Positions 3,056 through 55,543 of a stretch of 64,000 nt of DNA are shown here, piece after piece. The notes beneath the pieces are model-generated. The model made no database searches. It worked only from the letters and a program-made list of their open reading frames with translations, and was not told the origin of the DNA. This stretch comes from Caldilineaceae bacterium. Its GTDB lineage: Bacteria > Chloroflexota > Anaerolineae > Caldilineales > Caldilineaceae. The stretch lies in assembly GCA_011523365.1 (NCBI GenBank), contig WTGY01000151.1, positions 1 through 64,000 on the forward strand, read 5' to 3'. The position numbers and the translations under genes were made by a program. Within the stretch, counting starts at the first letter, position 1; each line of letters opens with the position of its first letter.

Positions 3056-3512
3056 GGGTGCTTCGCAGTTTTGGGGTGGGAACAGCCTGGCGGGGAATCA
3101 GTGCCAGCGGTGGCTGGCGTTGTTTAGCGTCTTTGGGCGAGACGCAGTGCAGGCGTCCGGCCTGCCGTACGGTGGGGTCCGTCAGTTGGGGCGAGTGCGA
3201 GGGCAGGCACAAAGGCCGGCACCTACGGGGATCTGATGGGACTGGCGGGACGTGGTCTGGCTAAACACTCTCGGCTGGGCACCTTTTCGAATAGAGACAC
3301 CAGGTCGGCGAGGCATGTTGTAGGAGAGGGGGCGTTGCGGGGGCGGAGCCCCCGCACAAGGGAGGGCCGAATAGGCCCGACCGCCCGGAACTGCAGTGGT
3401 CAGTGATCAGTGGTCAGTGACTGGCCATTCTATTTGAGATTGCTGTGAGCACTGGGCATGGTCTATTCACTGCCTGAGTTTCACGTAAGTGTCCCCCCTT
3501 TGTAACGCACAG
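3056..3512 (+). repeat. dispersed inverted-repeat element, copy 1 (right end decayed)
   Basis: The left terminal repeat is GGGTGCTTCGC (3056-3066), a variant of the family GGGTGCATCCC. The next ~330 bp match copies 2-4 closely, including the GC-rich palindrome core at 3331-3386. The core is followed by GGAACTGCAG and a TGGTCAGTG-type short tandem repeat (3387-3421). The right end is degenerate (about 3502-3512, GTAACGCACAG where GAGATGCACCC is expected), but its position gives the family length of ~457 bp. There is no transposase gene inside. It separates the MocA gene from the importer operon. The preceding 2784-3055 shows nothing recognisable. Confidence 0.8.
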
Positions 3513-25568: not shown

Positions 25569-25790
25569 GGTCGAAAAGGCACCTGCTGGAAGGACGGCAC
25601 GAACTGGCCAAGGCAGGTTGTTGAAGGGGGGCATTGCGGGGGGACTCCCCCCGCACAAGGGAGGGCCGAAGGCCCGACCGTCCAAATGCGAGGAGAGAGC
25701 GGAGAGGAGTGAGGAGAGAGAGGAAGACGCCTTGGCTCGCGCCAATATGGAGCGCGAGCTGGCCAAGGTTTGGTCGTTTGAGACCCAAAA
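25569..25790 (+). repeat. truncated copy of the dispersed element, abutting copy 2
   Basis: It lacks the left ~200 bp. Similarity begins around AGGTCGAAAAGGCACCTG and runs through the core palindrome (25620-25682), a GAGGAGAG tract and a decayed right end near 25780. The intact copy 2 starts at 25807, so the two lie in tandem. The 145 nt to the left (25424-25568) hold no recognised gene. Confidence 0.75.
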
Positions 25791-25806: not shown

Positions 25807-26260
25807 GGGTGTATCCCAGCTCTGGGGTGGGAACAGTCTGGCGGGGAATCAGTGCCAGCGGTGGCTGGCGCTGTTTACCGTCTTTGGGCGAGACGCAGTG
25901 CAGGCGCCAGGTCTGACCGTACGGTGGAGTCCGTCAGTTGGGGAGGGTGCGAGGGCAGGCTCAAGGCCGGCACCTACGGGGATCTGATGGGACTGGCGGG
26001 ACGTGGTCGGGCTGGACACCTTCGATTAGGCACCTGTTACGAATATCGACACCCGGTCGATGAGGCAGTAGGGGGGGCGTTGCGGGGGCGGAGCCCCCGC
26101 ACAAGGGAGGGCCGACTAGGCCCGACCGCCCATAGGTGAGGGGAGAGGAGAGAGTAGTGAGAAACACCACTTCTTTTGCAGGCATCTGGAATGGGAACTG
26201 GCCTTGGCTTGGTTGCCTCCGGAGGTATGCGACTGTCCACCCCCGTTTTGAGATGCACCC
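25807..26260 (+). repeat. dispersed inverted-repeat element, copy 2 (intact)
   Basis: 454 bp. Terminal inverted repeats GGGTGTATCCC (25807-25817) and GAGATGCACCC (26250-26260). Internal core palindrome at about 26080-26131, then a GGGGAGAGGAGAGAG tract. Reading frames inside differ between copies and are not conserved, so no encoded protein is proposed. Confidence 0.88.
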
Positions 26261-43017: not shown

Positions 43018-43033
43018 AGAGCAAAAATCTTAC

Positions 43034-43500
43034 GGGTGCATCCCAATATTGGGGCGAACTTTCGTATACCTCTGCAGGCACCCAAACCATGGTCAGTTCC
43101 CATTCCAGTTTTCGCCAGAAAAAGCGCCGCCTCTGACTGCTAACTACTGACTACTAACTGCTGCAGTTCTGGGCGGTCGGGTCTATTCGGCCCTCCCTTG
43201 TGCGGGGGCTCCGCCCCCGCAACGCCCCCTCCAACAACATGCCTCGCCAACCTGGTGTCGATATTCGTAACAGGTGCCTAATCGAAGGTGTCCAGCCAGA
43301 CCACGTCCCGCCAGTCCCATCAGATCCCCGCAGGTGCCGGCCTTGTGCCTGCCCTTGCACCCTCCCCAACCGACGCACTCCACCGTACGGCCAGGCCTGG
43401 CGCCGGCACTGCGTCTCGCCCAAAGACGGCAAACAACGCCAGCCCCCGCTGGCACTGATTCCCCGCCAGACTGTTCCCACCCCAAATCTGCGATGCACCC
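43034..43500 (-). repeat. dispersed inverted-repeat element, copy 3 (intact, reverse orientation)
   Basis: 467 bp. Terminal repeats GGGTGCATCCC (43034-43044) and GCGATGCACCC (43490-43500). The core palindrome is at 43171-43230. A GTCAGTAGTTAG-type short tandem repeat lies beside CTGCAG (43130-43166). Promoters lead away from both ends. No transposase gene. Confidence 0.88.
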
Positions 43501-43542
43501 AAATCTCGCCCCTACGCACGCCGGTCGTCCCGTGAAGCTCGG

Positions 43543-55087: not shown

Positions 55088-55543
55088 GGGTGCATCCCGG
55101 AACGGAGGTGAACTTTCTTATTCCTCAAGAAGCAACAGGGCCGATTCCAGTCCGCGATCAACTCTACTGCAAGGATAGCGCCTCCCCTGACCACTGTCCA
55201 CTGACCACTGCAGTTCTGGGCGGTCGGGCCTATTCGGCCCTCCCTTGTGCGGGGGCTCCGCCCCCGCAACGCCCCCCCTTAATGCCTACCCGACCAGGTG
55301 TCGATATTGGTGACAGGTGCCTGTTCGAAGGTGTCCAGCCAGACCGCGTCCCTCCAGTCCCATCAGATCCGCGCAAGTGCCGGCCTTGTGCCAGCCCTTG
55401 CACCTTCCCTAACTGACGGACTCCACCGCACAGTCAGGCCTGGCGCCTGCACTGCGTCTCGCCAGGAAACGGTAAGCAATTTCAGCCATCGCTGGCAATG
55501 ATTCCCTGCCAGACTGGTCCCACCCCAAATCAGGGATGCACCC
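55088..55543 (-). repeat. dispersed inverted-repeat element, copy 4 (intact, reverse orientation)
   Basis: 456 bp. Terminal repeats GGGTGCATCCC (55088-55098) and GGGATGCACCC (55533-55543) are perfect inverse complements. The core palindrome is at 55218-55275, flanked by CTGCAG and a TGACCACTG short tandem repeat (55188-55212). Confidence 0.9.

Follow-up and report, generated by a model that had tools for sequence, protein, structure and literature searches.

The principal finding of this work is that the dispersed repeat present in the window, the 64,000-nucleotide stretch analysed here (G000:C183:1-64000, from a draft genome that totals 5.67 Mb in 214 contigs), is a real MITE, which is very probably mobilised in trans by an insertion sequence (IS) of the ISKra4 family and whose structured core is probably held uniform by selection and ectopic exchange acting jointly. 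The window is 96.1% identical across 8 kb to the Caldilineaceae MAG COS1_bin_2 (L238), one of a group of bins that we take to be sponge-derived. The positions reported in an earlier note for three intact copies were confirmed. The full copy of 467 bp at 43034-43500 (+ strand), recognised by its ends, flanks and genome-wide matches, has a left terminal inverted repeat at 43034-43055 (+), where the consensus end agrees at 21/22 bp with the right end of an ISKra4 IS at locus L165, and a right one at 43479-43500 (-), where it agrees at 22/22 bp with the left end of the same IS. The structured core of 60 nt, with an outer stem, two hairpins and conserved linkers, occupies 43170-43229 (+), and the flanks AAATCTTAC (43025-43033) and AAATCTCGC (43501-43509), alike at 7/9 positions, probably are the target duplication. 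The second full copy (25807-26260, -; core 26073-26132, -) lies between TTGGCAAC and ACGGCAAC, alike at 6/8 positions, and the third (55088-55543, +; core 55217-55276, +) showed no 8-bp duplication, just CTCGT on either side.

The conserved arm described for these copies is present, and so is their double-hairpin core. The 11-bp ends that they were said to share do recur genome-wide, but among the intact window copies both 11-mers are exact only in that at 55088-55543, since the 25807 copy ends in GGGTGTATCCC/GAGATGCACCC and the 43034 copy in GGGTGCATCCC/GCGATGCACCC; moreover, the inverted repeat is really about 22 bp long when the family consensus is set against the ends of the partner IS (22/22 and 21/22 bp). 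The copy at 3056-3512 (-; core 3328-3387, -) is decayed, as had been described: 3056-3417 can be aligned, the match is poor from there to about 3512, and the left end is lost. Two stretches previously regarded as truncated copies turned out to be something else. The one at 112-260 is part of an IS66-type MITE that is truncated at the start of the contig (1-294, -; terminal inverted repeat CTTAGCAGTCAC at 283-294; core 163-222, -), which has only the core in common with the 455-bp family, and the one at 25569-25790 (-) is a relative with no recognisable ends that carries a different core version (25627-25684), of a kind common in genome G012. The cores in the window number six.

The MITE form suggested by the earlier note is supported by common ends, 8-bp duplications, a non-coding interior and a transposase-bearing relative, all of which were found. 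Genome-wide copies with common ends, whose search had been proposed, are evident from 104 exact occurrences of GGGTGCATCCC across the 5.67 Mb of the genome, where the reversed control occurs 0 times, and from at least 43 match rows of the 467-bp query in its own genome, a copy number that is a lower bound because 40 of 449 first-look candidates were scored. Both ends were present in 28 of the 30 loci examined for them, and these full copies measure 448-482 bp (the 28-copy alignment leaves out L010, L012 and L022). The target-site duplications, also suggested as a check, are apparent in the 28 copies as an 8-bp flank match of 4.89/8, compared with 2.20 ± 0.27 when partners were shuffled; the signal was absent at 4-7 and 10-12 bp and weaker at 9 bp than at 8 bp. 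Exact 8-bp duplications remain in 3/28 copies, and the copies are not all young, since the duplications have decayed as well. The statement that neither a transposase nor a conserved reading frame lies inside held too: the longest stop-free run has a median of 113.5 in the copies and of 107 in shuffles, the length of 258 of the 315 gap runs is not a multiple of 3, so that indels ignore the reading frame, and a Pfam search with five frames of the window copies gave no match. With crude ORF calling, the copies that have ORF neighbours (n = 65) stand between divergent (27), convergent (9) or co-directional (29) frames; when the two flanks are joined, a long ORF spans 15 of the 66 insertion points.

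The full-length relative with a transposase and the same ends, the third check proposed, is an ISKra4-family IS (Mutator superfamily) of the genus, whose ends are those of the MITE, end for end. The closest is that of L165: its left end is identical to the MITE right end over 22/22 bp, beyond which a similarity of about 75% extends as far as 61 bp, and the right end of this IS corresponds to the MITE left end over 21/22 bp. An intact ISKra4 IS with MITE-type ends is flanked by the exact 8-bp duplication TTCTACCC at L149, and at L162 an ISKra4 transposase with the same ends is accompanied by the duplication ATTCTTCG. Used as a DNA query, the L165 IS found nearly full-length matches in G002, G422 and G420, and three left and three right ends in the own genome at 91% identity. 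Some of these ends lie at contig edges (C25:61639-61692 at the contig end; C153, C143 and C38 at base 1; those on C194 and C106 are not counted as such), as would be expected where an assembly is broken by a repeat that exceeds the read length. In the own assembly, no intact gene for an ISKra4 transposase was found; it holds one 34-residue remnant besides the contig-edge ends. The ISKra4 partner fits the traits given for the IS of the Mutator superfamily in the available part of the published description, in which the inverted repeats span 18-39 bp and the duplications 8 or 9 bp (PMC3942029). The same part states that some members of the ISKra4 group insert 13-17 bp upstream of sigma-A promoters (PMC3942029). 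IS1595, which has an 8-bp duplication and ends starting with GGG, was considered as a partner and rejected, as none of the PF12762 loci of the genus has MITE ends. A second ISKra4-type MITE of 102 bp, lacking the core, was also observed (L025:1265-1366, L060, L160, L204, L225 and L399), with exact 8-bp duplications in 2/6 copies (L025 and L160), as was a 105-bp element seen in a single copy (G000:C31:49199-49303; L046:1501-1605), with perfect ISKra4-type ends and an unrelated interior.

Between these ends the interior is not IS sequence; it consists of a variable arm, a simple-repeat tract, the 60-nt core and the right arm. Across the 28 copies, off-consensus cells amount to 21/1680 (1.25%) in the core, most of them at position 1 or at a single site in a loop, compared with 555/6692 (8.3%) in the right arm and 554/2464 (22%) in the left arm. 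The same is observed at orthologous sites: in the three pairs counted (L011/L257, L011/L272 and L038/L271) the core differs at 3/180 positions, the flanks at 139/1797 and the right arms at 110/803. At L038/L271 the flanks are about 5% apart and the left arm belongs to another subtype (53/135 positions differ), with the core unchanged, and from the sequences the interior appears to have been exchanged and the core left unaltered. The pair of the window and L238 (differences: core 0/60, right arm 19/271, flank 2/321) stands outside the orthologue count because L238 was chosen by an exact core pattern; for the same reason the scan of contigs with that pattern, which selects exact cores, is outside the conservation figures, and the pairs L025/L277, L027/L198, L059/L300 and L115/L214 are outside the counts owing to interiors of other lengths. 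L008/L210 was rejected as a clean empty site: it is empty by distance, yet L210 retains a left-end fragment.

The core of about 60 nt is predicted to adopt a three-way junction fold. On the + strand, the window core is modelled as an outer stem with two hairpins (fold z -3.27), and across 39 core variants 94.6% of the cells pair, compared with 42-61% when the structure is slid (in the core alignment, A1, matches below 15 bits were removed and 3 of 42 variants dropped; pair 14-20 of hairpin 1 was left outside the structure, since the alignment shifts it between loop types). Four pairs changed on both sides, all of them within the hairpins. No compensatory change was found in the outer stem among the 39 variants, RNAalifold by itself omits that stem and the covariation term is small; in shuffle controls, the number of further pair types was reached in 130/500 and that of pairs changed on both sides in 12/500, so these counts are not decisive. 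When cores were taken from a sample chosen independently of the element sequence search, the variable cells made up 1.4-3.2% of the linkers, 5-8% of the stems including the outer stem and 23-37% of the apical loops; linkers as the least and apical loops as the most variable parts are as expected for a structured nucleic acid. Most stem changes retain the pair or a wobble on one strand. Of the non-Watson-Crick cells, 48 are A-C when read on the + strand, which makes them G-U on the opposite strand, and 6 are G-U on the + strand itself, a strand bias that is a lead only, because the 48 cells come mostly from about two species-level fixations. The whole element is also predicted to fold strongly on both strands (z -3.57 and -4.35). 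Inspection of the sequence argues against the core as an intrinsic terminator, a T run following neither hairpin, and Rfam covariance models at gathering score had no match to the element or the core. Regarding the RNA or regulatory role that the earlier note saw hinted at by the core, the structure and its conservation support it to that extent, as a putative role. At L029:1531-1590 and L119:132-191 the apical loop of hairpin 2 has GGA, the reverse complement of TCC, as a flipped hairpin would show.

The full element is present in 16/17 genomes of the genus (Caldilineaceae-type Chloroflexota), and so is the core, with up to 150 candidates scored per genome; no core was found in the complete genome G004, at least 150 were found in each of seven genomes and 3-8 in G002, G006 and G419. 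A search of 400 genomes of the phylum with the core model gave two matches, the own genome and G176, which belongs to another family and whose locus L247 has the right arm too. This only out-of-family copy (L247:1340-1460) contains G and N runs, and contamination or poor assembly is possible. Plasmids and phages showed no match to the element. A covariance-model search of an unselected sample, which comprised 300-kb stretches from five genomes of the genus together with 240 kb from the own genome, returned 67 cores, 11 of them from the own 240 kb, in addition to the six of the window. Most species in these stretches have their own core version, common to MITEs with dissimilar arms: the majority cores are distinct in G000, G012, G422 and G011, and that of G005 is the same as in G000. 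The mean core distance is 0.071 for copies in the same genome and 0.156 for copies in different genomes, with 0/2000 label permutations giving as large a gap, although the permutation is not over independent species because the genomes are related and copies were permuted. Within genomes the core identity is 0.89-0.97, compared with 0.57-0.73 for the adjoining 120 bp and a shuffled baseline of 0.52-0.55. In most genomes sampled, the core copies of one genome resemble each other more closely than the sequences around them do, and the core changes from species to species. Its uniformity is weak in two genomes. Two types of hairpin 1 occur in G422, where the median within distance of 0.136 exceeds the distance of 0.10 to G000; in G005 the within distance of 0.140 is noisy and several homopolymer errors are apparent, and G010 had one core only in the sampled stretch.

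Many more cores lie in elements with the ends GTRACTRCTAAG, which are those of IS66-family elements of the genus, one of them in the own genome. In 27 of these IS66-type MITEs, the 8-bp flank match is 6.07/8 against 2.21 ± 0.28, and exact in 12. Among 172 non-redundant core contexts, 85 have family-A (ISKra4-type) arms on both sides, 19 have family-B (IS66-type) arms on both sides and seven are A/B chimeras, the remainder having other, weakly similar or cut arms. Of 44 elements bounded by terminal inverted repeats, 33 contain the core and 11 do not; the latter are seven short elements with ISKra4-type ends (102 bp in six cases and 105 bp in the seventh), three that are an IS or the remnant of one, and a single family-A element from which a ragged deletion removed the core (L081). 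No precise empty core site was found among the 44. The position of the core is constant, and the same kinds of tract lie beside it. Tandem cores about 200 bp apart, with the intervening stretch in common, occur at L266:1341-1598 and L382:19369-19644 and may reflect unequal exchange.

The joint explanation given at the outset builds on what was observed directly, namely the anatomy of the element, its duplications, the partner ends, the sharing of the core and the pattern of conservation. We hypothesize that the ISKra4 transposase, a Mutator-superfamily DDE enzyme, would act in trans on the MITE ends, that copies would swap interiors by ectopic recombination with the core as shared homology, and that selection would act on the structure and linkers of the core, in the form of either RNA or single-stranded DNA. 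We regard the core as a structured module that is conserved and, we infer, functional. An alternative account accepts the MITE as set out above but gives the core no function, and attributes its uniformity within a species to ectopic gene conversion alone among hundreds of copies. It would be at home with the species-specific core versions, the A/B chimeras and the arm exchange at L038/L271, where flanks about 5% apart enclose a swapped left arm (53/135) and an unchanged core; however, the between-species differences are uneven (linkers 1.4-3.2%, apical loops 23-37%), most stem changes retain a pair or a one-strand wobble, and the conversion tracts would need to be confined to about 60 bp, so that we regard this account as rather unlikely. 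A bolder proposal, which we put forward tentatively as possible, is that the core is a genus-specific RNA or single-stranded DNA signal read by a co-evolving factor that differs between species, a passenger of unrelated MITEs whose copies are kept uniform by recognition and not by chance conversion.

The presence of the core beside other arms and in MITEs that belong to two or more IS families, together with the tandem cores about 200 bp apart (L266 and L382), might instead point to a separately mobile hairpin unit, similar to REP or to IS200/IS605 derivatives, that enters MITEs of any family. A unit of that kind is improbable given that no precise core-less element was found among the 44 TIR-bounded ones (33 with the core), and that the core keeps a constant position with the same kinds of tract alongside. 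The reading of the repeat as an RNA gene or regulatory repeat not derived from a transposon, whose terminal repeats would be part of a transcript fold, draws on the strong predicted fold of both strands (z -3.57 and -4.35), but it is contradicted by the target duplications and by a partner IS with both of the same ends, as well as by the chimeras and the contig-edge IS ends, and we give it hardly any credence. The combination of trans mobilisation with selection and exchange on the core is the explanation that we prefer.

The usual view of MITEs is that they arise passively from a single IS by deletion. In the present case, one structured core occurs in two MITE families whose ends belong to unrelated transposases, and it is the core rather than the arms that is uniform in each genome. 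The system makes two questions testable, whether a functional module can pass from one transposon family to another on non-coding mobile DNA, and whether dispersed repeats in bacteria evolve in concert, and it provides the ISKra4-family IS with a MITE on end-for-end evidence. As such, the ISKra4 MITE is an added member of a familiar class; for a structured core that MITEs of two IS families have in common and that shows concerted evolution, our searches of the open-access PubMed Central literature found no description. Judged by titles and abstract openings, no paper among those listed describes an ISKra4 MITE, with or without IS66, and among the literature matches listed for the end sequence, mostly primers by title, none was on the subject.

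REP/BIME and palindrome-associated elements are likewise GC-rich hairpins with many intergenic copies. Unlike REP/BIME, the core studied here lies within TIR-bounded elements with target duplications. As described in the available part of the report on Cardinium, the IS982-derived MITE of that bacterium (PMC9769881) is similarly short and non-coding, with IS ends, many copies and a partner IS in the same genomes; the element studied here differs from that account in an interior that is not IS-derived and in a structured, species-specific core that also occurs in MITEs of another IS family. The BrickBuilt MITE of Porphyromonas gingivalis, to the extent covered by the accessible text (PMC4596501), resembles it in having an internal repeat tract, an intergenic location and a species-limited distribution, but the BrickBuilt interior is a minisatellite, whereas here a conserved, junction-like core is common to families. 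Another close known system is the ISKra4 family, or p-MULT 4 (ISAzba1, ISMich2 and ISKra4 groups; Guerillot et al., 2014, PMC3942029), for which the available sections indicate the same transposase family (NF033572), inverted repeats with C outermost, 8-bp duplications and occurrence in Chloroflexi. In contrast to the IS of that family, the element itself has no transposase, and the word MITE is absent from PMC3942029. The partner IS of the genus resembles the ISMich2 group, as far as that source describes it, in a transposase spread over two overlapping frames, although the offset reported for ISMich2 is -1 (PMC3942029). In the ISKra4 transposases at L162:1200-2547, L149:1462-2809 and L165:1668-2844 the two frames overlap with the same +1 (or -2) offset, derived by hand in these three IS elements, and the overlap adjoins runs of T and C.
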